Positions 2,438 to 20,467 of a stretch of 25,203 nt of DNA are shown one piece after another (the stretch's first letter is position 1; every line of letters starts with the position of its first letter). The notes under the pieces were generated by a model that saw nothing but the letters and a program-made list of their open reading frames with translations, was not told the DNA's origin and made no database searches. The DNA comes from a virus. Location of the stretch: positions 1 to 25,203 of IMG/VR virus record IMGVR_UViG_3300035698_025338; one strand, written 5' to 3'. The position numbers and the translations under genes were made by a program.

Positions 2438-2440
2438 AGA

Positions 2441-2719
2441 TTATTGGTCCTTTGTCCAGATTCTTTTCATGTACTCAAAAGCAAGACGCGTGTCTTTTTT
2501 CGGTTTATGCTTGCGTTCGTAGGGGTTGAATGTTTCAGGTTTGACTGCTTGTTGTTTGCGCGGATCACGGTTGACGTTGAATAGCATCGCCAGAATATTG
2601 GCAGTATGGCTCCAATTGTCTTTACCGCAGGATTCGGCCATAATCAGTAGTTCACGCAACGTGAACGGTTCGGGATTCAGGCCGAGGATGCCTGCGATTT
2701 CGTAGATGAATCGATATAC
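2441..2719 (-). CDS. Tail assembly chaperone, -1 frame extension (gpT-like part of gpGT fusion)
   Basis: This frame has only a weak TTG (2659) as an internal start and no ribosome site. It is open upstream through the end of the 163-residue gene and reads sensibly there (KVYRFIYEIAGILGLNPEPFTLRELL, read in two parts KVYRFIYEIAGILG and LNPEPFTLRELL). The reading continues to IWTKDQ and stops at 2441, three bases before the tape measure ATG at 2437. If ribosomes slip -1 at GAAAAAG, the product is 150 residues of the upstream protein plus 92 from this frame, 242 in all. This matches the lambda gpG/gpGT scheme, in which the T part binds the tail tube and the G part binds the tape measure. The basic C-terminal part contains NPYERKHKPKKDTRLAF. 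Independent initiation at TTG 2659 (72 aa) is the alternative. Confidence 0.72.
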   Translation of the reverse strand, partial: VYRFIYEIAGILGLNPEPFTLRELLIMAESCGKDNWSHTANILAMLFNVNRDPRKQQAVKPETFNPYERKHKPKKDTRLAFEYMKRIWTKDQ

Positions 2720-3168
2720 TTTTTCACCTGCTGTTCCAGTTCCTTGTCCAGTTTCGGATCGTTCAGCTGCAGCTTCAGAGCTTTCTCCATCTGGTTCTTT
2801 ACCTTTTCCCCGGCGTTCATCAGCTTGCGAAGCACCAGCCGCTTCGCTTCCGGGAAAAAATCGACCAGTTCCTCCAACAAAGCGGTTGTCGCGTGTTCAA
2901 TCGCGTCTCCGCCCATGGCAGAGCCGAAGTTTTCATCTGAAATCTTCAGCTCATCAGCTTCAACTTTGCAGATGCAGTAAATCACATCGCAGAGCAGTAC
3001 CGGGTCGGATGCCAGCTCTTCCAGCAGATCAACATTGGGCGTATCGTTCTCATCAAGCTTGACTACATCCAATAGATTAATTTCTAGCAATGATCGCACT
3101 CGTTTGACGGTTGCAACATTCACCACAATTGTCCAGTTACGGTTTTGATTATCCTTAAAACACTTCAT
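2677..3168 (-). CDS. Tail assembly chaperone, short form (gpG-like)
   Basis: A 163-residue acidic, helical protein (LLEELASDPVLLCDVIYCIC, ALLEELVDFFPEAKRL, KQ/E-rich C-terminus). It lies between the tail tube gene and the tape measure gene, where siphoviruses encode the tape-measure chaperone. Its ATG overlaps the stop of the upstream tube gene (TAATG at 3166-3170), which implies translational coupling. The open frame that follows (down to 2441) is in the -1 frame and overlaps this gene's end, so a longer fusion is expected from a slip at 2719-2725. I do not recognise a specific Pfam family by sequence; the call rests on gene order and the two-frame layout. Confidence 0.72.
   Translation of the reverse strand: MKCFKDNQNRNWTIVVNVATVKRVRSLLEINLLDVVKLDENDTPNVDLLEELASDPVLLCDVIYCICKVEADELKISDENFGSAMGGDAIEHATTALLEELVDFFPEAKRLVLRKLMNAGEKVKNQMEKALKLQLNDPKLDKELEQQVKKYIDSSTKSQASSA
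2719..2725 (-). promoter_or_regulatory. Putative -1 programmed frameshift site GAAAAAG
   Basis: On the minus strand the zero frame reads CAG GTG AAA AAG TAT, and a -1 shift gives GAA AAA GTA TAT. The two Lys codons AAA-AAG are a standard slippery pair. The heptamer is not a perfect X-XXY-YYZ because its first base is G. About 25 nt downstream a CAGGC/GCCTG stem with a 7-nt loop (2678-2694) overlaps the zero-frame stop. An SD-like AGGTGA sits just upstream. Confidence 0.68.
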
Positions 3169-3605
3169 TATTCACCGCCTCCGGTTGCGCCAGCCCAGAT
3201 GGGCTCACGAGCTGAGTTAGCCGAGGGTTTGACGTTAACCGCGTAGTTGATTACTTCCTCCAGCCCCTCAGTCCGGTTGAATGAAATAACTTCAAAATCC
3301 GCGTCCAGACCAACTCCGTTTTCCGCCGAGTCCGCAATAAATAACGCAATCGGCGTATCATTAAAGAATGCGTTCTGCACCGCCTGGAACCCGGCATCAG
3401 AAGTATCTCCGGCAAGCGTAAACTCTACCGACGCGTCTTTCAGGCCGCTCAATACTTTTTTCCAGCCGGACGACCGCACCGCGACTTCGGCGCTGCCCTT
3501 TTCGATATTCAAAGATACCGAATCGGCCACGTGCTTGAGTTCCGTCGCGGCTTTAGTGCCAGCGACACCATAGAATATCTTTGCTTCAAAACCTATTTTG
3601 TACAT
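3168..3605 (-). CDS. Major tail tube protein
   Basis: A 145-residue protein beginning MYKIGFEAKIFYG, with the beta-rich pattern of TP901-1/lambda-V type tube subunits. It contains LKHVADSVSLNIEKGSAEVA (recording a typical strand-turn-strand), WKKVLSGLKDASVEFTL, DTPIALFIADS and DADFEVISFNRTEGLEEVINYAVNVKPS. Segments of the type EGLEEVINYAVNVKP (effect on expected tail subunit assay) are typical of phage tube proteins, which polymerise into the rigid tube around the tape measure. The ribosome site AAGGAT lies about 8 bases before the ATG. The gene is followed by the chaperone gene with overlapping TAATG. Tube identity comes from the sequence pattern plus its exact position between tail completion and chaperone genes. 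Confidence 0.78.
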   Translation of the reverse strand: MYKIGFEAKIFYGVAGTKAATELKHVADSVSLNIEKGSAEVAVRSSGWKKVLSGLKDASVEFTLAGDTSDAGFQAVQNAFFNDTPIALFIADSAENGVGLDADFEVISFNRTEGLEEVINYAVNVKPSANSAREPIWAGATGGGE

Positions 3606-3615
3606 AAAAAATCCT

Positions 3616-4008
3616 TTACTTTATTGAATCACTCCAGAACTTGTTGATTCTTTTCTCATTTGCTTTCAATGCCGGTCCCATAAAGGGGCGCCTGGGATAG
3701 TCCCTGCCGTAGTACTTCTCGCCAAACTCGTGCGCCCGACCGGAACGCCCAACCGCTGTATAAGTTGGACCAATCACCGCCGACATACGGTGTTTTTCCA
3801 CCTTGTAGAGCAACGCTCGTTTAAGCAGTCCTCTGCGAGTATGCGGTGGGGTTCCGGCTGTCGACTTCTTCTTACTTCGCCGAATGCTTCTCCTGGCTGT
3901 CAAGCGAATGGCAGCGGCGGCATGATTCAGACTTTGAAATGAGCCTTTGTCAACTTTCTTCTTAACTTTCTTGGCATCAAAACGCGAATGACTTCGCATG
4001 CCGAACAT
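3616..4008 (-). CDS. HK97 gp10-like head-tail/tail completion protein
   Basis: A 130-residue, very basic protein. It has an N-terminal KKVKKKVDKG segment, an alpha-helical AAAAIRLTARRSIRRSKK, a central TAGTPPHTRRGLLKRA loop and a C-terminal HEFGEKYYGRDYPRRPFMGPAL motif. The combination of an SxAGxPPHTRxGxLK-like loop and a YPxRPFMxPAL end is characteristic of the HK97 gp10 / phage minor tail (neck) family, which closes the tail end near the head. Only one base separates its ATG from the stop of the upstream gene (4010). A second Met three codons in is an alternative start. Confidence 0.8.
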   Translation of the reverse strand: MFGMRSHSRFDAKKVKKKVDKGSFQSLNHAAAAIRLTARRSIRRSKKKSTAGTPPHTRRGLLKRALLYKVEKHRMSAVIGPTYTAVGRSGRAHEFGEKYYGRDYPRRPFMGPALKANEKRINKFWSDSIK

Positions 4009-8670: not shown

Positions 8671-10158
8671 TTATTTATTCTTTTGGTTTTGAATCATATC
8701 TTCCGGTTCAAAACCATCATTTTCTTCTAGTTCAATTAGTTGCTGTGACTCTTGCAGATTATTGGAAATGGGTATGCCAAGTTCTCGCATCAACCTCAAT
8801 TCCTTACCCCTCTGGCGTATAACAGAGAGATAATCACGTCCATCACGAGCACACTCCGCGGCGAGAGTTGTAGTGTTGTTTTCAAGCCTAACTTTTTGAG
8901 ATTTAGACTCTTTAAGCGGATCAACATGAACAAACGCATCCCAGTACCAAACACGCCTTGGATAATGTGCCAATTTGAACGGCAACCTTGAAGGCGATGC
9001 CCGCGCCAGAGAATACTCACGCATCCATACGATAAATAGCTGATTGAGAACTTCAGTTTCCCAAAAACTGCGGTCAACCATGATTGATTTGTGGTAGATC
9101 TGATTGTCCAGACGACCAGAGGCGTAATTGAAGCCGGAAAAATCTCCGGCTACACTGCCGTAAGTCGAACAGACGCATCTGGCGATCTCGCTTAAAATCA
9201 CCTTGACGAATTCAGCATGACTGGAGGCAGGCTGTTTCGGATCAAGCTGATCGAGTTTCCATCCAGCCGGAGCGGTCAACATCATATTGCGCTCCAGTGG
9301 AATGATATCCATCGGCTCAACTTCGTCACTTTCACCGTTTGGCGGAGCGTCAGTATAAAGAATCGCCGCGAAATCCGCCGCCGCCTCAGCCGCACTCAGC
9401 ACCGCCAGATTATACCGGCGTAATTGAGCAAATAACGGCAGTGCCGACGTGAGTTCCGGCACTCCCCGATGCAAGCCGGGTCTATCCTGACGAAAAATGT
9501 GCAGCATGAATTCTGCCGGGACTGATATCGCCTCTTCGCCAGGAGCGTAGTGGACATCGCCGGGATGGTATTTCATTACCCGGTAATTATCAGGATTGCC
9601 CCAGGTATCAAAACTGATGCCATCGACGCATTTATCATCTTCCTGCCAGATAAGTTCACTACCGATCCGGTCTGCCTCAATCAGCATCAGATCAAGTTTG
9701 ACATCATGATGAATTTTTGGATTAGTCGACATCACCGCGAAAGATTCGCCATCCTGGCACCGGGCCATTCGCATAGTACGCAGTTTCGAAGCCAGGCGCA
9801 CCGCCTCGCTCCACTGCATGAATTCAGTTTCAACTTCGTCATTGAAATCCTCGTCGCCAGTGAGCATTTGCAATCTTGGCCCAGTGCCGATGCAGTCGTT
9901 AGCCAGCATCTGAACTAGTCCCTTGGCGTAGGAGTTATTCGCTACTTCATAGCGTGATCGCATCCGCAGAGTCCGTCGCACATCGGGCGATGCTTCCATG
10001 TCAGCCGAAAGATGATCCGCCGCAGCCCAATGCCGGGCATTATCGTGCGTAGTCTGCGCCGCGTCAAATCGTCCACGAACAACAGGTCGAACACCGTAAC
10101 CCGGGGCCTGGATTTGCGGCTTTCTACTTTGGAATATTGATTTTAACTTTTGTATCAT
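8671..10158 (-). CDS. Portal protein, lambda gpB family
   Basis: A 495-residue protein with the lambda-type portal pattern (PF05136). It has an N-terminal FDAAQTTHDNARHWAAADHL, an SPDVRRTLRMRSRYEVANNSYAKGL arginine-rich segment (SPDVRRTLRMRSRYEV then ANNSYAKGL), DCIGTGPRLQ, FMQWSEAVRLA, MLIEADRI, HIFRQDRPGLHRGVPEL, FAAILYTDAPP, and YGSVAGDFSGFNYASGRL, a highly typical gpB motif, followed by RSFWETEVLNQLFIVWM. Twelve copies form the DNA channel at one capsid vertex. The length is normal for the family. AGGAT precedes the ATG, whose A is directly after the stop of the upstream 66-residue gene. The pairing with a GpA-type terminase is consistent. Confidence 0.95.
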   Translation of the reverse strand: MIQKLKSIFQSRKPQIQAPGYGVRPVVRGRFDAAQTTHDNARHWAAADHLSADMEASPDVRRTLRMRSRYEVANNSYAKGLVQMLANDCIGTGPRLQMLTGDEDFNDEVETEFMQWSEAVRLASKLRTMRMARCQDGESFAVMSTNPKIHHDVKLDLMLIEADRIGSELIWQEDDKCVDGISFDTWGNPDNYRVMKYHPGDVHYAPGEEAISVPAEFMLHIFRQDRPGLHRGVPELTSALPLFAQLRRYNLAVLSAAEAAADFAAILYTDAPPNGESDEVEPMDIIPLERNMMLTAPAGWKLDQLDPKQPASSHAEFVKVILSEIARCVCSTYGSVAGDFSGFNYASGRLDNQIYHKSIMVDRSFWETEVLNQLFIVWMREYSLARASPSRLPFKLAHYPRRVWYWDAFVHVDPLKESKSQKVRLENNTTTLAAECARDGRDYLSVIRQRGKELRLMRELGIPISNNLQESQQLIELEENDGFEPEDMIQNQKNK

Positions 10159-10359
10159 TTACGATCCTGAGTGTGATAGTTTGCTGATTTTTAGGCCGGA
10201 ATTTTTACGTTTTACGGCTTTTTTCCCTTCGAGGTAATTGTCCACAGCGATCTGGTCTTTCAGCGAATGCTGCTCAAACTCACCACTGTCATTTCTCGCC
10301 CGTTTCGGATTCGAAGCGTTGTCCTTGATGTTTTGAGATAAATCAGCTCCATCTGTCAT
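10159..10359 (-). CDS. Small hydrophilic protein before portal
   Basis: A 66-residue, highly charged protein: MTDGADLSQNIKDNASNPKR, NDSGEFEQHSLKDQIAVDNY, LEGKKAVKRKNSGLKISKLS. It lies in the position where lambda encodes gpW (between terminase and portal) but shows no clear gpW motif. GGGAGG is about 6 bases upstream of its ATG. Its stop touches the portal ATG (TAA at 10159-10161, ATG at 10156-10158). The SGEFEQHSLKDQIAVDNYL stretch is similar to short Mu/lambda-type proteins with unknown function. No function assigned. Confidence 0.75.
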   Translation of the reverse strand: MTDGADLSQNIKDNASNPKRARNDSGEFEQHSLKDQIAVDNYLEGKKAVKRKNSGLKISKLSHSGS

Positions 10360-10460
10360 TTAAGCCTCCCTTTGTTCTTAAGTCTGATTATTCCATTAGC
10401 GAGAATCTGCGCCACTTCCTTCATTTTGTCCGATTTCTCGGGGTGAATTTTTTCAGCCAT
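10356..10460 (-). CDS. Small 34-residue ORF at the head of the morphogenesis operon
   Basis: ATG at 10460 preceded by AAAGGAAT; the product begins MAEKIHPEKSDKMKEVAQIL and ends ANGIIRLKNKGRLK. The stop overlaps the ATG of the next gene (ATGA), and the GGGAGG ribosome site of that gene lies inside this frame. The peptide should form one basic amphipathic helix. The good ribosome site and the coupled junction argue that it is translated. No family recognised. Confidence 0.6.
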   Translation of the reverse strand: MAEKIHPEKSDKMKEVAQILANGIIRLKNKGRLK

Positions 10461-10785
10461 TTTCATTCCTTTCAAAAAAATCATGTGCCTCTACTATTCA
10501 TATTCAACAGAAAAGTGATTTTGGCTGAGATATACGGGGGATGGAAGTGTTTTTAATTGAAATTTCTTTTAGCTTGAGGGAGAAGAAAAAACAATAAAAA
10601 TGGGAGATATGTCTTTTTTTGATAAAATCAATCAAAACCCATTTGTTTACTATGCGTTTTGAAGAAAAATATCAAATAAAATGAAATAATTACTTGAAAA
10701 AACGAAACATAAATTTATGTTCATTATTAGCGGCTGAGAACTTATTCCCCCATCATCACCCCTCCCCATAGTTCTCAGTCGTTTT
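10461..10785. other. 325-bp AT-rich gap between terminase and morphogenesis genes
   Basis: No convincing gene longer than about 20 codons. It holds a long inverted repeat next to the terminase stop (separate entry), a perfect 16-bp palindrome AACATAAATTTATGTT at 10706-10721 followed on the minus strand by CG and TTTTTT (terminator-like but AT-only), and T/A-rich DNA up to the ribosome site of the 34-residue gene. On the plus strand a 20-codon frame (10599-10661) follows GGGAG-like sequence but is too short to support. A late promoter or RNA processing site is plausible; no clear -35/-10 pair was seen. Confidence 0.55.
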
Positions 10786-10787
10786 TT
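10731..10787. terminator. Inverted repeat with T-run just after the terminase gene
   Basis: Arms CGGCTGAGAACT (10731-10742) and AGTTCTCAGTCG (10770-10781) pair over 12 positions with one G-T type mismatch, and enclose a 27-nt loop that is C-rich on the plus strand (GGGG-A-GGGG..GGGGG on the minus strand). Six Ts follow on the plus strand (10782-10787), so as an intrinsic terminator it faces plus-strand (antisense) transcription. On the minus strand it would form a large stem-loop directly downstream of the terminase stop. Confidence 0.55.
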
Positions 10788-13128
10788 ATCTTTTGTTTCT
10801 CCGCATCTCTGAAAGCTTAATTTTTTCGCGTGTGATTCTGCTACTCCCAGACTCACGGTTACCACCTCTCCGACTTGAAAGTTTTACCGGGGCTTTGCGT
10901 TGTCTGGTTCCGGCACCTAATTCAGGCATAGTGGCTCCGAGCATGGACGCACTGACGGCGCAGCCGACGAGACAATCAAGAAAGTGATTGTCGTTATGCT
11001 GAGGGCGGATTTTCCATTCGTCAACGACCCGGCCTCGTCCAGCTGTCTTGACTCGGTACTCGGCGATCAGATGTTCGGCGATCAGCTGATGCTGGAGCGG
11101 AGCTCTTCCGTAAAATGTCAAATTACCCTTATCTCCGATGGCTACGGCCAGTCTGGCATGAATGAAAGATTTCCAGAAGTTGGTATCGTAAATCACATGC
11201 CGGATGGCTCGTTTGCCGGTCACATTTGGAATCATCCAATTCAGGCCAAGACGGTCGCCAGGCTTTTTGCGATACTCAGTCATTGGTTTGGATGATGCGC
11301 CAACGTATCGACCATGTGACGGCAGGATGATATTCGAGTATGTGCTCTGGCGGCAGAACTGATAAACGATGTCTGTGCTCTGTCCCCAGTTGGCGTCGAT
11401 CATGGCGCGTTCGACTTTGAACATTGCTCCATCTTCACGTTGCCATTCACGCGATAGATAATCATCCGTCAAAGCTGTCAATGCCGCATACAAACCGCCT
11501 TCAAATCCAGCCTGCGGAAAAACGCTTTGAATTGTCGGATTGGCATCCGCAAGCGAATACTGTCTGCGCTTTTGATCCGGCCATGCGCCGTAGTCGATTA
11601 CCGCACCGGTGAATTCATCACTCCAAGCGGCAACCACATAAAAAAGCAATGACTTCTGGACATCAATAAACATTGTAAGCTTATCGCAGGCCAATGGAAT
11701 GCGCCCTCGTTTCAGTCCGCTGACTTTTGAGGCTATTTCATCCACAGTCAAAAGTGATTCATCGCTATCGTCATCCGGCAATGGATCATTCTGGTACTCG
11801 CTACGGAATGCGGATTCATCCTGAAATTTCAAATTCATCGCATGCTGCAATGCTGAGATTTCGTCATGATTGTATCGCGCGTCCCAGGATATTTCCGCAC
11901 CGGCATCCATCGCTTCTTGATTAGCCTTGTAAAAATCGGTCGCAACCTGGAAGTTGCCGTCAGTACGCAGTGACTCAGCTCTGATTTCGGCATATTGTTC
12001 CCAGAGCTTCATGTTTTCCGGGAACTTATTAACCATCCGCGCCTTTTCACCATTCCAGTCAGGATGCTTGTTTTTGTCAAGAATAGTATCAGCCATATCG
12101 CCTGGTCGAATGATGGTGCATGGCATTACGCCGGATATTTTCTGTCCGGGACCAGCTAAGCCAAGGATGTCTCCTGCCAATACCCGGATGCGTTTGCGAG
12201 TCTGCTCCAGACTCCCGGCACTCTCGCTGGTTTGCGGATCGTCAATAATCACCAGAGAGGGACGAACGCTCCGACCATCGGAACGTTTGTATTTCATTCC
12301 ACGAATACGTCCGGTGATCCCAGCGACTCGAACGATGATACCGCTGGATTTGCTCTTTTTGATAGTCGGCAGAACAATTTCATTGCTCGTCCAGGTAATC
12401 CGAGTACGCATTCCCTGATACAACTGCCCGGCACACCGATTGGCGATTCCTTCAAGCTGCGCAACCGGATAGCAAACTTCCGGAAAATCAGTCGCCAATA
12501 TCTCATTGACTTCCAGCTCGGTTTTAATACTGTCAAGAATCTCCAGTGCAGCCGATTCGGTTGATCCAATCAGCGCCACAAACTCACGGTGACCATAAAG
12601 CATGGCCCATAAACAGGCCGCTTCTGCAAGACTCGTCTTTCCCATACCACGCGGGAGAGCCAAGGCAAATAAGCCGCCGCTTAAAACCGCAGTTTCGATT
12701 TTCTCAATCACTTTGATATGGTCAGGAGACCAGGTCAAAGAGAATGTTGCAGGGAAATAACTCTCGCAATATAATTGAAAATTACGTTCACAGTCAGCTT
12801 TCCGCTGCAAGTTGACAACTTCCGGCAAAGCTCCGATGTCGCGCCCGGATAACGATTGTTCTGCTTGTCGCTGTCGTTCGGCATCCCGGCGTTCGTCATA
12901 TGAACGAGACGTCGCATCGTTTTGCGGACGGTGTTTATGATCACACATCCAGGCAAAATATTTTACCAGATTGATATTCCGTGAATTGTCAGATGCCGCG
13001 ATACGAAAACCAACCCGGTTAAAGTCCCGGTAGATTCGCGCCTGTGGCAAAACAAATCCCTGTTGGGTGGAATTTATCAGTCGCGCCACTTCCACCGGGC
13101 GCATTGAATTTGGATTAATTGGTGGCAT
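10786..13128 (-). CDS. Terminase large subunit, GpA family
   Basis: A 780-residue packaging motor. Walker A is LPRGMGKT (158-165), Walker B LVIIDDP (292-298). Nuclease-domain acidic residues are likely D489 (MFIDVQ), D578 (MIDANWGQ) and D718 (HNDNHFLDCLVG). Between them are GRIRGMKYKRSDGRSVRPSL and PGDMADTILD, typical of lambda gpA-type terminases (PF05876). The family cuts concatemers and drives DNA into the prohead. Residues 1-110 precede the ATPase and contain RPVEVARLIN...RIYRDFNRVGFRI...NINLVKYFAWM, a pattern reminiscent of terminase small-subunit HTH domains. The ATG at 13128 overlaps the end of the upstream 67-residue gene by 14 bases. Confidence 0.95.
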   Translation of the reverse strand: MPPINPNSMRPVEVARLINSTQQGFVLPQARIYRDFNRVGFRIAASDNSRNINLVKYFAWMCDHKHRPQNDATSRSYDERRDAERQRQAEQSLSGRDIGALPEVVNLQRKADCERNFQLYCESYFPATFSLTWSPDHIKVIEKIETAVLSGGLFALALPRGMGKTSLAEAACLWAMLYGHREFVALIGSTESAALEILDSIKTELEVNEILATDFPEVCYPVAQLEGIANRCAGQLYQGMRTRITWTSNEIVLPTIKKSKSSGIIVRVAGITGRIRGMKYKRSDGRSVRPSLVIIDDPQTSESAGSLEQTRKRIRVLAGDILGLAGPGQKISGVMPCTIIRPGDMADTILDKNKHPDWNGEKARMVNKFPENMKLWEQYAEIRAESLRTDGNFQVATDFYKANQEAMDAGAEISWDARYNHDEISALQHAMNLKFQDESAFRSEYQNDPLPDDDSDESLLTVDEIASKVSGLKRGRIPLACDKLTMFIDVQKSLLFYVVAAWSDEFTGAVIDYGAWPDQKRRQYSLADANPTIQSVFPQAGFEGGLYAALTALTDDYLSREWQREDGAMFKVERAMIDANWGQSTDIVYQFCRQSTYSNIILPSHGRYVGASSKPMTEYRKKPGDRLGLNWMIPNVTGKRAIRHVIYDTNFWKSFIHARLAVAIGDKGNLTFYGRAPLQHQLIAEHLIAEYRVKTAGRGRVVDEWKIRPQHNDNHFLDCLVGCAVSASMLGATMPELGAGTRQRKAPVKLSSRRGGNRESGSSRITREKIKLSEMRRNKR

Positions 13129-13318
13129 CGTCTGAAGTCTCCTTTATTAGCCAGGCACCGTATTCAATCAGATTGAACGTTCCGTCCGGGTTGCGTGGTG
13201 CGCCGGATTCAACATCCGACGCCAGCGTTTGGGTTGTAATGGTTCTGCTTCCTGCCTGCTTGAGCAATTTGACTAGCATCTCCGGCGGCAATGAAGTTAG
13301 AGAGAGTGAATTATCCAT
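13115..13318 (-). CDS. Small TerS-like protein upstream of the terminase
   Basis: A 67-residue protein: PPEMLVKLLKQAGSRTITTQ, TLASDVESGAPRNPDGTFNL, IEYGAWLIKE. The order of a short helix, a T-x-x-TL helix, a G-x-P-x-NPDGT turn and an NLIxYxAWLxxE end is similar to phage terminase small subunits of the gpNu1 HTH type and to short DNA-packaging proteins. It overlaps the methyltransferase gene by 8 bases upstream and the large terminase by 14 bases downstream, so it is part of one coupled operon. Identification as TerS is inference from position and pattern; the protein is much shorter than lambda Nu1 (about 180 residues). Confidence 0.7.
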   Translation of the reverse strand: MDNSLSLTSLPPEMLVKLLKQAGSRTITTQTLASDVESGAPRNPDGTFNLIEYGAWLIKETSDDATN

Positions 13319-15548
13319 TTGTTATTACCTCAAGAACAGGTGTCAACTCCTGCCAGTCGTAGCCTTCGCCATGGACAAATTCAGCGTAACGTTTGCGAAT
13401 GACATCACAAAATCGTTCATCAAGCTCCATCAGGCAGGTAATGCGTCCGGTCTGCTCAGCGGCGATCAGCGTACTGCCGGAACCCGCAAAAGTATCGACA
13501 ATCAGGTTTCCTTTCTGGCTGGAATTCTGAATCAGATAGATCAGCATTTCTATTGGTTTCATGGTATTATGCGTCATTCCTACAGCTGTTTGGAATGTAT
13601 GGGAACCATCAACACTCAGATTGATGACTTCACCATCATACTGTTGCGGCTCAACTTTCTTGATGCGTCGCAACCAATACTTTTTCCCTCCATATATGAC
13701 TTCCCGACTTTCAAATGTCCTTTTGGATTTATGATAGTCAGAAGAATAAAACGGCAGCGTTTTCTTAAATTTACGCTTGCCTATACCCTTTCCGACAGGA
13801 GCTTGACGAAAATACAAAGAAGTTCTATAACCGAGAGATTCAGCAAAAAACTTCATTTGTGATGCAAGCGCTCGTGAAACGCTTTTTGAATGACGATGTC
13901 CCCGAGTGGAAATTATGCAACCATCTCCCGCCATGTAGCCTTCATAAAAACATTGTCTCAGTTCCCGACTCCATTGAAAGACTTCCGGGGAAATAACTTT
14001 TTGCGAAGCATATTTACCACACAGTTCAAGACAACGTTCTCCTTTTTCCGGGATAAACACCATTACAGTAATTCCATGTCCACCGGAATGATTTCTATAA
14101 GTTTTAACTTTTGACTTCCCTCCCCATACTTCAAGTTTTTTGCGTAGATGTGACTTTCTGCCATCCAAAGCAAAAACAGGATATTGGTTGTTTCCATGTC
14201 CAGCTTTCTGCAAGCTGCCTTGAGCCAACCATAGTCCATAACACCAAGCATCGAGTTTACCTATATCACGGTGACTACCATGCTCTAATTGAGGCGTAAG
14301 AATAAAATCATTTTCACGTAGGTCTTTTGCATCGGTCCAAGCAATATCCAATTCCCCATGTTCATTTCTGGTTGCGGTTAAATACGGATGATTGTGGGTT
14401 GCCTTATCTTCCAGGTTTGTCCCGGTTACTCCAATGTTAAAGATATTCTCGCAATATGAGTGGCTGCTACAAAGGGTTACTTCATGGAAGCATCCATCAT
14501 GAGACAACACTAGATCACCTTTTATGATTTCACCAATTGGAACATAGCCACGAATTGTCATCACAAGTGTATCTGGAGTAAGACATGGATGCAGATCACT
14601 TCTCTTAGGTCGGTTGAACTCCATAACCGTGGTCTGGGTTCGATCCGAATACCAGGAATGTGCCGCGCCGTCTTTCCAGCCATAAAGACACGGTTCATGA
14701 ATCCATTGATAATCCTGTCTGCCAAGCACCAGCGAGTTCTTTTTCCAGATCAGGCATTGGCGAACCTGTAAACCGGATGCTTTACATGCCCCTCGGAAAT
14801 TGTAACCCTCGCTATCGGCATGGAAAATGTAAAATGATGCGCCATCGTTCATGGTTTCCACTGCGTTGGTGAAAGCAGAAGCCAGGAAGTTAAAGAATGC
14901 TGAATCATCCATATCGTCGTTCTGAATAGTCATGCCAGTCCCGCCTTCATAGGCCACGTTGTACGGTGGATCAGTTAACCATAGGTCAGCAGTTTTACCG
15001 CTAAGCAAAGCCTTAACATCATCACTACTTGTCGCGTCACCGCACATCAGACGATGATTCCCCAGCTGGTAAATTTCGCCTGGTTTGCTGATCGGCTCTT
15101 CAGGAGTTTCAGGAACTTCATCAGGATCGGTCATGCCATCGGCTACCGCATCATCACCGTTAAGCAGCATATCCAGTTCGCCTTCATCAAAGCCAAATAA
15201 TGACAGATCAAAATTGCTTTGTTGCAAATCGGCCAGTTCCAACGGAAGTAATTCATAATCCCACTCGGCGATTTCACCGGTTTTATTATCGGCAATCCGG
15301 TATGCTTTGATTTGTTCCGGCGTTAAACCACGAGCGATATGAACTGGCACCGTATCCAGTCCCAAGTGTTCAGCAGCTTTCAGCCTGGTGTGACCACATA
15401 TTATAATGTTGTTTTCATCGACGACAATCGGCGCATGCCAGCCGAATTCTTTTATTGATTCAGCCACGGCCTCAATCGCGTTGTCGTTGATTCTCGGATT
15501 GCGTTCGTAAGGAATTACGTCCGCGAGTTTCATTTGTTCGATTTTCAA
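13311..15548 (-). CDS. ParB/Srx nuclease-like domain fused to N4/N6 DNA methyltransferase, intein-containing
   Basis: A 745-residue precursor. The ParB-like domain occupies residues 1-95 (RNPRINDNAIEAVAESIKEF in the N-box, CGHTR at 51-55). The methyltransferase follows with DPPY at 193-196 and, after the intein, HP-TMKPIEML and VDTFAGSGST (about 684-693). DPPY before FAGSG is the beta-class order for N4-cytosine/N6-adenine methylation. The mature protein would be about 405 residues, the usual size for the ParB-methylase proteins of phages. I use the TTG start at 15548 because AGGAG is 8 bases upstream; an ATG five codons later would leave the site too far away. It probably modifies phage DNA, protecting it from restriction or marking packaging sites. 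It begins the late operon, divergent from the AbiE operon. Confidence 0.93.
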   Translation of the reverse strand: MKIEQMKLADVIPYERNPRINDNAIEAVAESIKEFGWHAPIVVDENNIIICGHTRLKAAEHLGLDTVPVHIARGLTPEQIKAYRIADNKTGEIAEWDYELLPLELADLQQSNFDLSLFGFDEGELDMLLNGDDAVADGMTDPDEVPETPEEPISKPGEIYQLGNHRLMCGDATSSDDVKALLSGKTADLWLTDPPYNVAYEGGTGMTIQNDDMDDSAFFNFLASAFTNAVETMNDGASFYIFHADSEGYNFRGACKASGLQVRQCLIWKKNSLVLGRQDYQWIHEPCLYGWKDGAAHSWYSDRTQTTVMEFNRPKRSDLHPCLTPDTLVMTIRGYVPIGEIIKGDLVLSHDGCFHEVTLCSSHSYCENIFNIGVTGTNLEDKATHNHPYLTATRNEHGELDIAWTDAKDLRENDFILTPQLEHGSHRDIGKLDAWCYGLWLAQGSLQKAGHGNNQYPVFALDGRKSHLRKKLEVWGGKSKVKTYRNHSGGHGITVMVFIPEKGERCLELCGKYASQKVISPEVFQWSRELRQCFYEGYMAGDGCIISTRGHRHSKSVSRALASQMKFFAESLGYRTSLYFRQAPVGKGIGKRKFKKTLPFYSSDYHKSKRTFESREVIYGGKKYWLRRIKKVEPQQYDGEVINLSVDGSHTFQTAVGMTHNTMKPIEMLIYLIQNSSQKGNLIVDTFAGSGSTLIAAEQTGRITCLMELDERFCDVIRKRYAEFVHGEGYDWQELTPVLEVITNG
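13566..14585 (-). other. Intein with partly decayed LAGLIDADG endonuclease inside the methyltransferase (340 aa)
   Basis: A 340-residue in-frame insertion after residue 321. It begins CLTPDTLVMTIRGYVPIGEI (Cys codon 14583-14585), has block B THNHPYLTA (63-71), two dodecapeptide-like motifs CYGLWLAQGS (115-124) and FYEGYMAGDGC (213-223), and ends YDGEVINLSVDGSHTFQTAV then GMTHN (Asn codon 13566-13568). The +1 residue is Thr. Splicing joins DLHP to TMKP and restores the conserved HPTMKP motif. The first motif has Gln (Q122) where the family has the catalytic Asp/Glu; the second keeps D221. Self-splicing residues look intact, so the host enzyme should still be made. Confidence 0.94.
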
Positions 15549-15634: not shown

Positions 15635-16237
15635 ATGACGAAATATGAAAAACAACTAAAGCCCTTGCTTGAAGGCAACCGTCCATTTACGGCATCTGAG
15701 ATACGAGATGCCGGGGTACCTGCTCAAGTTCTGGTAGACTTGTGCACTCAAGGAATAATTGAGCGTTTGTATCGCGGGATTTATCTTCCTTGCAAGGCAA
15801 GCCCGGCGACCGAACTTTCCGAACAGGTGGTTTCTTTGAAAATGCCTGACGGAGTCCTTTGTTTGCTTACCGCTCTGCGCTTCCATAATTTCACTACTCA
15901 ACTTCCGCATGAGGTATGGGTAGCGGTGAAACCTGGAAGCTGGGTTCCCAAAACAAATATTCCGGCGATCCGTGTGGTCACACAATCTGGGTCGTCTTAT
16001 GACCACGGCATTGAGGAGCACGATGTGGGCGGCATGACGCTGAAAGTTTATTCCGCAGCTAAAACTGTCGCCGACTGCTTCAAGTTCCGAAATAAAATTG
16101 GCATCGATGTTGCTTTGGAAGCACTTCAGGACGGTCTTCGTCAAGAACTTTTTACTGCCGACGAAATTTCAAAGGCGGCAAAAGCATGCCGGGTTTACAA
16201 AGTGATGTATCCGTATTTGGAGACTGTTTACGCATGA
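15635..16237 (+). CDS. abiEi: AbiEi antitoxin of type IV toxin-antitoxin/abortive infection system
   Basis: A 200-residue protein. The N-terminal winged-helix region (about 1-80) reads LLEGNRPFTASEIRDAGVPA, LVDLCTQGIIERLYRGIYLP, the pattern of the AbiEi N-terminal domain. The C-terminal domain contains LCLLTALRFHNFTTQLPHEV (LTALRFHxLTxQxPxxVWVAV is an AbiEi hallmark), WVPKTNIPAIRVV and VYSAAKTVADCFKFRNKIG, with the typical S-x-AKTVADCFKFRxKIG. It neutralises the AbiEii nucleotidyltransferase without direct contact and represses the operon. It ends in an ATGA overlap with abiEii. The operon faces opposite to all neighbouring phage genes, as expected of a cargo (moron) locus. Confidence 0.93.
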   Translation: MTKYEKQLKPLLEGNRPFTASEIRDAGVPAQVLVDLCTQGIIERLYRGIYLPCKASPATELSEQVVSLKMPDGVLCLLTALRFHNFTTQLPHEVWVAVKPGSWVPKTNIPAIRVVTQSGSSYDHGIEEHDVGGMTLKVYSAAKTVADCFKFRNKIGIDVALEALQDGLRQELFTADEISKAAKACRVYKVMYPYLETVYA

Positions 16238-17148
16238 GCAATCCCAATCCCACAAATTTTGCCGCATCGGTGGAGGCAAAACTAAAAAATGTTTGCAAAC
16301 AACAAAACATAGACTATAGGTTCGCTTTGATCCGCTATGCTACTGAACGTTTCTTGTATCGCTTGAGCGTTTCCGAATATGCTCAGCAATTCGTACTCAA
16401 AGGCGGCAACCTTTTTATTATCTGGCAAAACGGACGCAACTTCCGACCAACGGTTGATTCTGACTTTCTGTACTTTGGCAAACCAAATAACGTCTTATTC
16501 CAAGAGATATTCACCACGCTTTGCAATGCTCAAATTGATGAAAAATCAGGATTGCGATTTGATGCAGATACCATTAAGATTTCCGCAATACGTCAGGAGA
16601 TGAAAGATGTCGGAACTCGAATCATACTAACAGCATTCCTTGGCAATGCGCAGGTCCATCTGCAATTTGATATTGGAATCGGCGATGCCGTCACCCCTCC
16701 GCCAGAGTATGCTGAGTTTCCGGTGCTGCTCAATGGAGTTGCACCACGCCTGCGCATCTATCCCAAGGAAACCGCAATCTCGGAAAAATTCGAGGCGATG
16801 GTAACCAAAGGAGAACTCAACAGCCGCATGAAAGACTTCTATGACATTTGGTTGTTAACCGAGTTGTTTGATTTTGATTTCGTTACTCTGCAGCAGGCCA
16901 TTCACAACACATTCTCACGACATGAAGTTCCACTTCCAACATCAACACCAGAATGTTTTACCAGAAACTTTTTCAACAATCCGATGAAACAAATACAGTG
17001 GAAAGCTTTTTGCCGGAAAAATCATATTTCCCAACTTCCAGAAAGTTTTGAAATGGCGATTTCTCGAATCAAAGCATTTTTGGAACCGGTATATATGGAA
17101 TTGGTTTCGTCGCCAGAAACATGGCATGCAAACAAGGGCTGGCAGTGA
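16234..17148 (+). CDS. abiEii: AbiEii nucleotidyltransferase toxin
   Basis: A 304-residue protein (PF08843 type). I start it at the ATG at 16234 (ATGA overlap with abiEi) rather than at the longer frame. The nucleotidyltransferase core is LKGGNLFIIW (55-64) followed by RPTVDSDF (71-78), that is, the GG...D-x-D motif with D75 and D77. Later EKFEAMVTKGELNSRMKDFY (184-203) with DIW (204-206) gives the conserved K-F-EA-M-V and N-S-R-M-KD-F-YD-I-W signature. The family adds nucleotides to targets and arrests growth upon phage infection. All motifs are present, so the toxin looks intact. Its usual role is bacterial anti-phage defence or plasmid maintenance; here it is carried by a phage. Confidence 0.94.
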   Translation: MSNPNPTNFAASVEAKLKNVCKQQNIDYRFALIRYATERFLYRLSVSEYAQQFVLKGGNLFIIWQNGRNFRPTVDSDFLYFGKPNNVLFQEIFTTLCNAQIDEKSGLRFDADTIKISAIRQEMKDVGTRIILTAFLGNAQVHLQFDIGIGDAVTPPPEYAEFPVLLNGVAPRLRIYPKETAISEKFEAMVTKGELNSRMKDFYDIWLLTELFDFDFVTLQQAIHNTFSRHEVPLPTSTPECFTRNFFNNPMKQIQWKAFCRKNHISQLPESFEMAISRIKAFLEPVYMELVSSPETWHANKGWQ

Positions 17149-17520: not shown

Positions 17521-17769
17521 TTACGGGAACTTACCATTCTCTCGCCTCAGATGCGAGACGATCTGATTGACTCTTCGCACCGTCAGGCCGGTCACATTGG
17601 CTATTTCCGCGCTGGTCGCTCCGGTCTTGGCCATGGCGATCACCAGCTCCCGGTTGCCGGTGGTTCTTTTTTTGTCCGGGATATAAAGCATTCCGGTATA
17701 ATGCTGTTTGATTTTATCGACTAATTCTGACGGCAGCACATCGGCGGCATTGGCGTAAGATTTGTTCAT
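17521..17769 (-). CDS. Mor-like transcription activator
   Basis: An 82-residue protein from the ATG at 17769 (AGGAG 7-11 bases upstream; the longer frame to 17817 would run over a repeat). It reads MNKSYANAADVLPSELVDKI, KQHYTGMLYIPDKKRTTGNR, ELVIAMAKTGATSAEIANVT, GLTVRRVNQIVSHLRREN. LPxxLVxxIxxHYxGxxxYIPxxxR followed by a helix-turn-helix (TSAEIANVTGLTVRRVNQIV) matches the Mor/DNA-binding activator family of Mu, which turns on phage middle or late genes. It follows the repeat region and lies between the replication and late modules, fitting a switch role. Mu Mor is longer (129 residues), so the protein is a short version or a related HTH regulator. Confidence 0.72.
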   Translation of the reverse strand: MNKSYANAADVLPSELVDKIKQHYTGMLYIPDKKRTTGNRELVIAMAKTGATSAEIANVTGLTVRRVNQIVSHLRRENGKFP

Positions 17770-18130
17770 TTGTATTACTCCTGTTTTTGGGTGGAAATTT
17801 CTTAAAAACACTTCCATACTTTAATAATGGTCAAAACGGTACCCCCCTTCTAACACACACATAAAAAACAGCTTTTCGTGACGAGGGGGTGACCATTATG
17901 ACCATTATTATATATATATATATATTTATAATTATTTAACCTCAAACTCTCTTTCTTTTTCGCCTTAATAATGGTCGAAAACACCTGACCGTTATTAAAC
18001 CATTATGACCATTATGGGGGTGGAAATCACTTTTAAACGAAAATTCCATGCATAATGGTCGAACCGTTTTCAATAATGGTCAGATGCAAAATGACCATTA
18101 TCAGGTTGGAAATCGCATTAAAAAGCTTCC
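17770..18130. other. Repeat array around an AT tract: putative replication origin or regulatory region
   Basis: A 361-bp gene-free region. Eight exact 9-mers ATAATGGTC occur in both orientations (plus: 17824, 17968, 18052, 18073; minus: 17891, 17900, 18007, 18093; start positions), with near-copies at 17987 and 17998. Three dyads TGGAA...TTCC(A) occur at 17792-17816, 18021-18048 and 18107-18130, each close to a 9-mer. A 36-bp tract of only A and T (17904-17939, including a TA run) adjoins the two tandem sites. Iterons plus an AT-rich unwinding element next to a primase-helicase gene is the layout of phage and plasmid origins; binding by a regulator of the Mor-like gene is the alternative. Confidence 0.68.
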
Positions 18131-20467
18131 TCATATCAGTGAATAAAATGTTGCCGGACGCTTGCCGGTCGCTACTGTTTCGATTGAAATAAGCTCCTGA
18201 TTTACCAGACTCTCAAGCACCGCGTTCAGATAGTTCGGCGGGACATCCTTAACCTTCCGATTAAAGTTGCGTCCAGGCATCGGAGTGTTGGTGTCATTAT
18301 TTTTGCGCCAGTGTTCGAGAATATCCAGAACGCGCCTTGATACCCGGGCAAATTCATTTTTATGATGATTGCGTTCGACCATGGCGATTAGCTGTCCAAT
18401 TTCCCAAAATATGAACTCTTTGGCCCATTCGACCCCAGGGCGGGTTATCGTTACATTTTGCGGTTCAGTCGCAGCCGAACATGCGTAAATCAAGCTGAAT
18501 TTGAGAACGTGCTCAAAGGCTCTTGCCCAGATCGAAAGTCGCCAGTCATCAGTAGATTCCTTATCACATTTCTCATACTCGTCATCGGTTATGATATATA
18601 CTTCTCCCAGAAGTTTTTCCGCATCCGGAGTTACCGCTGCATCCATAGCGCGGACGTCAAGGTTGCCGCTGCCCGGAGGAACGAATTTATGCCATTTTTC
18701 CGCTTGAGCGATGATTGACGGTGAGATATTCCTTGGATCAGCCTGAATTTGTCCGCGTGAGCGGTTTTCCGTATGCATGATTGTCATCCGGCTGATCAGA
18801 CCACCCGCTAACATTCTGTCGGTCAGACATCCGAAAAATTCTACAGGAGTAGAAGTAGTCAAAGCGACCAGATTCGGACATGATATGGTTTTGGTCTCTT
18901 TCCCGGCAAGAGGTCTGGTGTTGAAAGTTTCCCCGGCGCTGGAAAACAACCTTAGTATCGTTGCAATTATCTCTCCAGTCCTGCCGGATTTATCCTGCGC
19001 CGCCCGTTCAAGGAAACTGTAAAACTCATCAGACTGCCAAAGCAAGGCGGGCATTAATACCATGGCATCTTCAAGACCTGCATTCGAGCTGACTGTTTCT
19101 ACGAGGTTTTTTGAAATTCCAAGTCGGGCAAGGATATGATTATTTACTTTTCTCGGATAATCTTTACCAACTCCGGATTTTGCCAGTAACGCCAAATAAG
19201 GATTGGTTCTTATTCCGTATAACGAGACCTTACGGGCCGCCAGATGCGCCATCAGTGCCATGGCTCCGGCAAAGGCGGCGGTTTGACTTGGATGCGCTGC
19301 ACTTTTCATGGAGAATTCCATAATGTCGTTTACCAATCCCGGCATATTATGCAACTCCACAGGTAACGGTACGATAAGGTTCGATTTTTTTCGCTTTTCT
19401 ACTGTGCGCGGCTTTTCGTTTTTATTCAAAATCCCGGATAAATCAACATCTTTGTCTTCTTTTATTTCCGGTTTAGGATCACCTTTGAGTTCGCGCAGGG
19501 CGTGCCAGTCGTTTTCTTGACAGGAATTATGATGACAGGTAAAACCTATTGCGCCGTTGGCCTGTTCGGTGATGACCGCGCTGCGGTTGGTATGCTCAGG
19601 ATTAAACGGACAGATCGGTAATACCCACTTACGTCCATCTTTCCAGGAGGTTGGAGCTTCGGCTTCCGGGCTGTATTCATTGATCCACATGTCGAGATTA
19701 AAATCAGACTGGAGTTTTGAAAATGTAGCCTGTGGTGTTTCCTGTTTTCCGGCCAGTGTCTGAAGCTGTTCAAGAGTGACTGCTTCCAGTTTATCCGGGG
19801 GTGAGATCATTTTTGCCATGCGATGCTTCCGGTCCTTGGTTTCATCGCCTTTGCGATTCCAGGTACCTGAAAGACGCCAGATTCGTGCCGGGTTGTAGAC
19901 GGTTGTGTCAACCTTTACCTTATCGTCATCGGCTTTGGCCATTGTTTTCAAACATGCCTGAATCAAGCCATCATCATCTACCGGCAAATCAATTTTATAC
20001 ATCAATTGTGCACCGTTGCCGGAATCCAGCATGATTGGTTTCGGCCAACCAATGGATGTTAAGTATTCAGTTATTTCCATCGCCTTGTATAAGGCCGCGT
20101 CGTGTTCTATGTCGGTTGAGGATATCCCGGAACGACGTACCGGATCACAATCAATAAGCAACCAGCGGCGTTTAAGGATATCCGCATCGGTGGTGGCCGC
20201 ATTCCGTTTCGCCTGTTGTATTCGGTTTGCAGACCTGGCCAGCAGATCAGGATGGACTGGATTCGGGGTGAAGTACACTCCGCGAGCAGAGATATGGTTT
20301 AAATCTTCGATGACCTTGTCAATATTCTCGTATGTAAAATATCCTGCTTCCGGGTGTTCATTACGCCACTTCGATGTTGTAGCGTCCAGGCATCTGATCT
20401 CGAACGTATCGCCCGGTTCAAACACCAGATTCAGGATGTTTTTTATTTCGTCACAATTATTTTGCAT
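18131..20467 (-). CDS. Primase-helicase fusion (AEP-like primase, zinc motif, P-loop ATPase)
   Basis: A 778-residue protein. Residues 1-240 look like an archaeo-eukaryotic-type primase: RWLLIDCDP (101-109, with the D106/D108 pair), DSGNGAQLMYKIDLP (148-162), DTTVYNPARIWRLSGTWNRK (187-206). A zinc-type motif follows: C286-P-F-NPEH292 ... C311-HHNSC316. The C-terminal half has LLAKSGVGKD (427-436, Walker A) and LLWQSDEFYSFLERA (475-489, Walker B), the DUF3987-type helicase pattern, then a likely winged-helix end from about 720. The protein should prime and unwind phage DNA. AGGAA lies about 6 bases before the ATG. It borders the repeat array at its 3' end. Confidence 0.88.
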   Translation of the reverse strand: MQNNCDEIKNILNLVFEPGDTFEIRCLDATTSKWRNEHPEAGYFTYENIDKVIEDLNHISARGVYFTPNPVHPDLLARSANRIQQAKRNAATTDADILKRRWLLIDCDPVRRSGISSTDIEHDAALYKAMEITEYLTSIGWPKPIMLDSGNGAQLMYKIDLPVDDDGLIQACLKTMAKADDDKVKVDTTVYNPARIWRLSGTWNRKGDETKDRKHRMAKMISPPDKLEAVTLEQLQTLAGKQETPQATFSKLQSDFNLDMWINEYSPEAEAPTSWKDGRKWVLPICPFNPEHTNRSAVITEQANGAIGFTCHHNSCQENDWHALRELKGDPKPEIKEDKDVDLSGILNKNEKPRTVEKRKKSNLIVPLPVELHNMPGLVNDIMEFSMKSAAHPSQTAAFAGAMALMAHLAARKVSLYGIRTNPYLALLAKSGVGKDYPRKVNNHILARLGISKNLVETVSSNAGLEDAMVLMPALLWQSDEFYSFLERAAQDKSGRTGEIIATILRLFSSAGETFNTRPLAGKETKTISCPNLVALTTSTPVEFFGCLTDRMLAGGLISRMTIMHTENRSRGQIQADPRNISPSIIAQAEKWHKFVPPGSGNLDVRAMDAAVTPDAEKLLGEVYIITDDEYEKCDKESTDDWRLSIWARAFEHVLKFSLIYACSAATEPQNVTITRPGVEWAKEFIFWEIGQLIAMVERNHHKNEFARVSRRVLDILEHWRKNNDTNTPMPGRNFNRKVKDVPPNYLNAVLESLVNQELISIETVATGKRPATFYSLI

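Follow-up and report, generated by a model that had tools for sequence, protein, structure and literature searches.

The repeat array beside the primase-helicase gene of this virus is very probably the replication origin of a tailed phage, at which the neighboring PrimPol-AAA+ helicase would bind the iterons through its C-terminal winged-helix (WH) domain, melt an A/T tract, load itself and prime synthesis. We observed directly the repeats, a layout common to related loci, and covariation of the repeat with the WH domain. With repeats in place in relatives, an origin of replication, as suggested in the preliminary description, is the best-supported reading of these sequence comparisons.

Repeat array in the window

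The window, meaning the whole stretch of DNA that was analyzed, is a complete virus record of 25,203 bp. The record is that of a tailed phage, with genes for terminase, portal, a fused protease-capsid protein, a Sak4-like annealing protein, single-strand binding protein, RusA and helicase, and nearly all of the listed phage genes are on the minus strand. The array is located between the stop codon of the primase-helicase gene (18131) and a Mor-like regulator gene (17521-17817, minus strand), that is, at the 3' end of the primase-helicase gene and not upstream of it. Eight exact copies of the 9-mer ATAATGGTC, four in each orientation, were all found within 17824-18101, and none was found elsewhere in the record. 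When the sequence was shuffled, the mean number of copies was 0.17 and none of 100 shuffles reached eight, in line with the earlier estimate that such a 9-mer should occur well under once. Since two further copies have one mismatch, the total number of iterons is ~10. Tandem pairs are present at 17891-17908 (exact) and 17998-18015 (with one mismatch), and the first 5 bp of a pure A/T tract are shared with an iteron. Thus, the eight 9-mers in both orientations, the tandem arrangement and the 36-bp A/T tract were all recovered as first described. The features are as follows:

17822-17910, minus strand: inverted-repeat module (tandem iterons, ACCCCCTCG, spacer, inverted iteron); single-stranded DNA fold, position and geometry recurring in L010 and pRN plasmids
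17824-17832, plus strand: iteron ATAATGGTC, distal, inverted relative to the tandem pair; exact match, layout
17891-17899, minus strand: iteron of the tandem pair adjoining the A/T tract; exact match, layout
17900-17908, minus strand: iteron of the tandem pair adjoining the A/T tract, 9-bp period; exact match, layout
17904-17939, no strand: pure A/T tract of 36 bp, probable unwinding element; composition, iteron-flanked A/T peak also in relatives
17968-17976, plus strand: nearest iteron across the A/T tract, opposite orientation; exact match, layout
17987-17995, minus strand: iteron with one mismatch (ATAACGGTC)
17998-18006, minus strand: iteron with one mismatch (ATAATGGTT)
18007-18015, minus strand: iteron; exact match
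18052-18060, plus strand: iteron; exact match
18073-18081, plus strand: iteron; exact match
18093-18101, minus strand: iteron; exact match

The inverted-repeat module has 27-nt arms that are 85% complementary with 35 nt between them, and positions 17815-17915 fold strongly as single-stranded DNA (z -5.5). In the window type, the tandem pair is followed by ACCCCCTCG, which is kept in the relatives L010 and L019 despite divergence of their remaining flanks. GC skew showed no sign change at the array, and sigma-70 promoters and terminators in the region were at chance level. A DnaA-dependent iteron plasmid origin was rejected because DnaA boxes are at chance level in the window, where no exact TTATNCACA was found and one-mismatch copies occurred in a chance number. 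A search of the region against Rfam gave one sub-threshold match only, to mir-3118, which we judged to be a by-product of the inverted repeat and the A/T run.

The three TGGAA..TTCC dyads noted previously were located at 17792-17816, 18021-18048 and 18107-18130. Across the window this pattern had 10 matches against 3.1 expected, a moderate excess, and three separate sites within 340 bp form a real cluster. The TGGAAAT..TTCC dyads interleave with the iterons, one of them lies 25-45 bp ahead of the probable Mor-like start codon, and none was seen in the relatives. A regulator specific to the window could use them as operators, and the origin reading does not need them.

Among the neighboring genes, an AbiEi/AbiEii type IV toxin-antitoxin pair (15635-17148) is encoded just past the putative origin and the Mor-like gene, on the plus strand and thus opposite to nearly all other genes. 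A ParB-domain/DNA methyltransferase fusion (13311-15548, minus strand) has a weak intein N-terminal match, and its methyltransferase match is split around residues 330-650. In the related locus L011, a DEAD/ResIII-type helicase of the prophage (745-3576) has an apparent intein-like insertion right after its first 30 residues.

Repeats and layout in relatives

The best relatives of the primase-helicase were in Lentisphaeria genomes (L010 and L011), followed by 66 viral loci and 29 of 198 genomes of the same class, and most are from Lentisphaeria phages and prophages. Scanning viral contigs with the WH alignment gave no further relatives. For 46 distinct complete relatives, the window included, we scored the top over-represented 7-9-mer in the 363 bp after the stop codon. 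For these loci and for the controls alike, the score is that of whichever word length did best. It was at log10 P -7 or lower in 27 of the 46 loci, whereas 1.1% of 542 control windows taken from those loci were as low; the window itself scored -21.4. Counts of exact 8-mers in 330 bp agreed with this: at least four copies were present in the downstream flank at 19 of 46 loci and in the upstream flank at none of 44, and random windows reached this number in 13 of 2,614 cases. In a held-out set, 10 of 18 loci reached log10 P -7. Note that a strong 3' repeat was missing in 19 of the 46 relatives, some of which have coding sequence there, and that many relatives are contig fragments.

The preliminary description had proposed searching related phages for the 9-mer. 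Direct searches of viral contigs and class genomes with forms of the window iteron gave no clustered arrays, and the relatives carry a 7-9-bp repeat of their own at the corresponding position (the 27 loci above, window included). Specifically, the tandem TGACCATTATGACCATTAT occurred in viral contigs only in L009, as a chance match inside a coding gene and outside any array, GGTCATAATGGTCA had eight matches but no clustered arrays in the 198 class genomes, and ATAATGGTCACCCCCT and TTATTGACCTTATTGAC formed no clustered arrays in viral contigs. L010, whose protein is 46% identical, has eight copies of a different 9-mer, GTCAATAAG, in both orientations just 3' of the primase gene. The same 9-bp tandem, A/T-rich stretch and C-run/G-run inverted repeat are found there, and its inverted module has the same position and geometry as that of the window, with a single-stranded fold at z -6.4. 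L043, with another WH type, has the iteron AGGTTAGA. The Moraxella phages Mcat11 (L087) and Mcat10 (L101) have nine copies of GCAGACA 3' of the primase gene (3552-3813, log10 P about -20), an array that sits right before the annotated attL, and the E. coli K-12 phages Halfdan and Shy have a weaker array of their own (log10 P -8). No 3' array was found in the distant helicase relatives Loki, RcSpartan, R7M, Vibrio 1.030, AH03, VCLv21, K9PH25C2, ctUnS216 and Ssp-JY40.

These arrays have a layout in common. The nearest iterons flanking the A/T peak are oppositely oriented in 31 of 33 loci, and the A/T fraction of the 40-bp peak is 0.85 against 0.65 in controls. Distally, one iteron or a tandem of them faces an inverted copy, mostly 60-74 bp away from start to start, and the tandem period in the relatives is 8-9 bp in most pairs. 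A tandem pair with an inverted copy at ~64 bp is part of this common layout. Stem pairing that continues past the iterons was not general across the family, and GTG/CAC start sites were not enriched in the loop of the inverted module (z 1.7).

Domain organization of the primase-helicase

The proposed initiator and its domains are encoded as follows:

18131-20467, minus strand: primase-helicase, proposed initiator, 778 aa; PHROG 3022 DNA primase, AlphaFold model at pLDDT 90, PrimPol motif residues invariant
19748-20467, minus strand: PrimPol domain, residues 1-240; motif I D106/D108, II Q154, III D187, IV R195
18380-19342, minus strand: MCM-like AAA+ helicase core, residues 376-696; VIA-align
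18131-18355, minus strand: C-terminal WH domain, residues 705-778, proposed iteron reader; model, covariation with iterons

An AlphaFold model built from the 46-sequence alignment had a mean pLDDT of 90 and a lower pTM of 0.58, so that the placement of the domains relative to each other is uncertain. The predicted order of folds is PrimPol, a Zn-type region, the AAA+ core and the WH domain. The best matches of the AAA+ core are MCM helicases, as exemplified by the yeast CMG chain 9e2w_5 (VIA-align Z 17.6, rmsd 3.9 over 271 residues). The model of the WH domain alone matched various winged helices, human MCM4 among them, at VIA-align Z 9-10, and all Foldseek E-values in the PDB fold search were above 0.001, so the domain is a generic winged helix with no specific closest family.

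PrimPol motifs I (hhhDhD) and III (hD) are present, with D106, D108 and D187 invariant in all 46 sequences, as is the motif IV Arg (R195). Position 154 of motif II (Gln or His) is Q in 39, H in six and Y in one, and the Zn-binding cysteines C286/C311/C316 are found in 38 of 46. The Pfam DUF3987 ATPase model matched L043 above the cut-off and L061 and L062 below it, with no match for the window protein. No DUF927 or D5/Primase_Cterm Pfam match was found in the window protein or four relatives.

The WH domain and iteron specificity

Iteron similarity was correlated with WH identity when PrimPol identity was held constant (partial Mantel r 0.32, 0 of 999 permutations) and when helicase identity was (r 0.21, 4 of 999 permutations), and the reverse tests of PrimPol or helicase given WH were weak or null; because the loci share ancestry, these and the following rank tests do not draw on fully independent samples. 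For 12 held-out loci with arrays, the nearest WH neighbor predicted the iteron at a median rank of 2 of 29 (mean 5.25), and none of 20,000 random draws was as good. On the other hand, the nearest PrimPol neighbor failed to predict the iteron of the same loci (median rank 18, mean 15). Note that L120 and L122 were missed by the WH neighbor and that L106 is almost identical to its neighbor. By these statistical tests, the WH domain appears to carry the repeat specificity, the repeat following the WH domain and not PrimPol.

We also examined relatives without a gene-adjacent array as a possible refutation of the match between WH domain and iteron. L065 has a WH domain like that of L068 and L139 (iteron AACTCCGCA), and AACTCCACA repeats, as its WH type predicts, were found ~3 kb downstream behind inserted DNA. 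The L065 insert (9475-12300, between primase and array) contains a 505-aa opposite-strand ORF (10083-11600) that is glycoside hydrolase-like by eye. In L051, whose WH domain is like that of the window, an array of GTCAATAAC/GGTTATTG is present ~1 kb downstream. No clear array was found in L067 and L038 in this check.

The primase-helicase, the HTH proteins and the Mor-like protein had been listed as candidate initiators. Covariation and held-out prediction single out the primase-helicase, through its C-terminal WH domain. The Mor-like protein probably does not read the array, since its gene is absent near most arrays: in ~20 of the 27 strong arrays it was not found within 5 kb downstream.

Taken as a mechanism, the primase-helicase would bind the 9-bp iterons through its WH domain and assemble on both flanks of the A/T tract in opposing orientations, perhaps as paired hexamers. 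The assembled initiator would then melt the tract and load itself as the helicase, giving bidirectional forks, and the PrimPol domain would synthesize the first primers.

Comparison with known systems

The phage P4 alpha protein, which acts with ori and crr, is a primase-helicase with a C-terminal iteron-binding domain; its primase type and iteron differ from those of the window. The best reading of the origin logic, by analogy, is that it resembles SaPI Rep. SaPI Rep and the SCCmec protein Cch2 are initiator helicases of staphylococcal islands that load themselves, and each uses a C-terminal domain to bind iterons immediately downstream of its own gene (PMC7581432). Here too, a putative initiator helicase has a C-terminal domain, for which covariation and held-out prediction point to iteron binding, and short repeats right downstream of its own gene. 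However, the present system is that of a tailed phage in which one protein joins PrimPol to an MCM-like AAA+ core, and its 7-9-bp iterons flank an A/T block in a fixed inverted layout. It may work like SaPI Rep, yet the missing DUF927 or D5/Primase_Cterm match keeps it from being classed there.

The protein is also like the PrimQH family of PrimPol-PV1 (Kazlauskas 2018) in combining PrimPol, a Zn-binding domain, an ATPase (of DUF3987 type in that family) and a C-terminal WH domain with Q or H in motif II, and origin recognition by the WH domain was predicted for that family in 2018 (PMC5862659). Candidate sites and covariation are added here to that description, whose cited passages give no origin sequences.

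The third likeness is to the archaeal plasmid pRN1 family (ORF904), which has a PrimPol-helicase-WH protein and an inverted-repeat element of ~100 bp 3' of its gene; the pRN1 helicase is described as SF3, and the best fold matches here are MCM chains, although an SF3 helicase may also fit. Replication of pRN1 depends on the region 3' of its replication gene, and the ~100-bp stem-loop restores replication when moved (PMC4234260). The authors left the sequence motifs of the initiator unidentified and favored a stem-loop structure over sequence-specific sites, a symmetry-restoring mutation having rescued replication (PMC4234260). In the pRN family we found arms 57-74 bp apart with an internal period of 9 bp. 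Specifically, the pRN1 arms are 21 bp long and 58 bp apart, with TGTCCA twice per arm at 9-bp distance. Self-match of the arm at lag 9 was 6, 6, 7 and 5 of 8 in pRN1, pRN2, pHEN7 and pDL10 (L214-L217), summing to 24 against 8-14 at other lags (P 5e-5 for the best of lags 8-11); this is a lead and not proof, because the 25-nt segments were picked by eye and pRN1 and pHEN7 are related, which the shuffles ignore. An iteron cluster with an A/T block was not detected on the gene side of pRN1.

Alternative explanations

Repeats of this kind could also be sites that the initiator binds only for control of its own expression or of copy number, with the true origin elsewhere, as exemplified by crr of P4. 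Covariation with the WH domain would be explained in this case too. However, the array includes an A/T tract and is located 3' of the gene, away from its 5' end, the 5' sides of the genes have no matching repeats, and pRN1 needs its matching region in cis (PMC4234260), so that we consider this very unlikely. An operator array bound by a transcription regulator (the Mor-like or HTH proteins) governing a late-gene switch would fit the Mor-like gene that begins just past the array in the window and about ten relatives, as well as the dyad 25-45 bp before its probable start codon. This is highly unlikely given that a Mor-like gene is missing within 5 kb of most arrays, that the repeat sequence tracks the WH domain of the initiator, and that an A/T tract between inverted iterons is origin-like.

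The strong single-stranded folds of the window and L010 raise the question of whether the origin is a cruciform or hairpin whose iterons are a by-product of the inverted-repeat stem; for pRN1, a stem-loop is what the authors of that study argue for (PMC4234260). Single iterons and those beyond the A/T tract fall outside the stem, pairing stops at the iterons in the family as a whole, and the arms of the pRN stem contain the internal 9-bp repeat, making a purely structural element a remote prospect. Finally, the ParB-domain/methyltransferase fusion encoded nearby could have the array as a parS-like partition site, but the iterons are not palindromic and their sequence tracks the WH domain of the initiator; the probability of this is close to negligible.

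Implications

Under the origin reading, the analysis contributes candidate sites at dozens of loci, a rule for their layout and a statistical test of WH specificity, and it makes testable the 2018 prediction of WH origin recognition (PMC5862659). The repeat changes together with the WH domain across dozens of phages, and the protein sequence therefore helps to predict the DNA that is read. We tentatively suggest, as an idea slightly more doubtful than not, that one class of origin serves the PrimPol-helicase-WH initiators of both the archaeal pRN plasmids and these phages; in it, 3' of the gene, tandem ~9-bp iterons and an inverted copy would face each other at a distance of 55-75 bp. In that case the pRN1 "stem-loop" would consist of two inverted pairs of sites for the initiator, and WH domain and iterons would be swapped as a matched module between PrimPol backbones, with a partly readable WH-to-iteron code. 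That the pRN stem-loop is kept in shape and not in sequence may be explained by sites diverging together with the domain that reads them.
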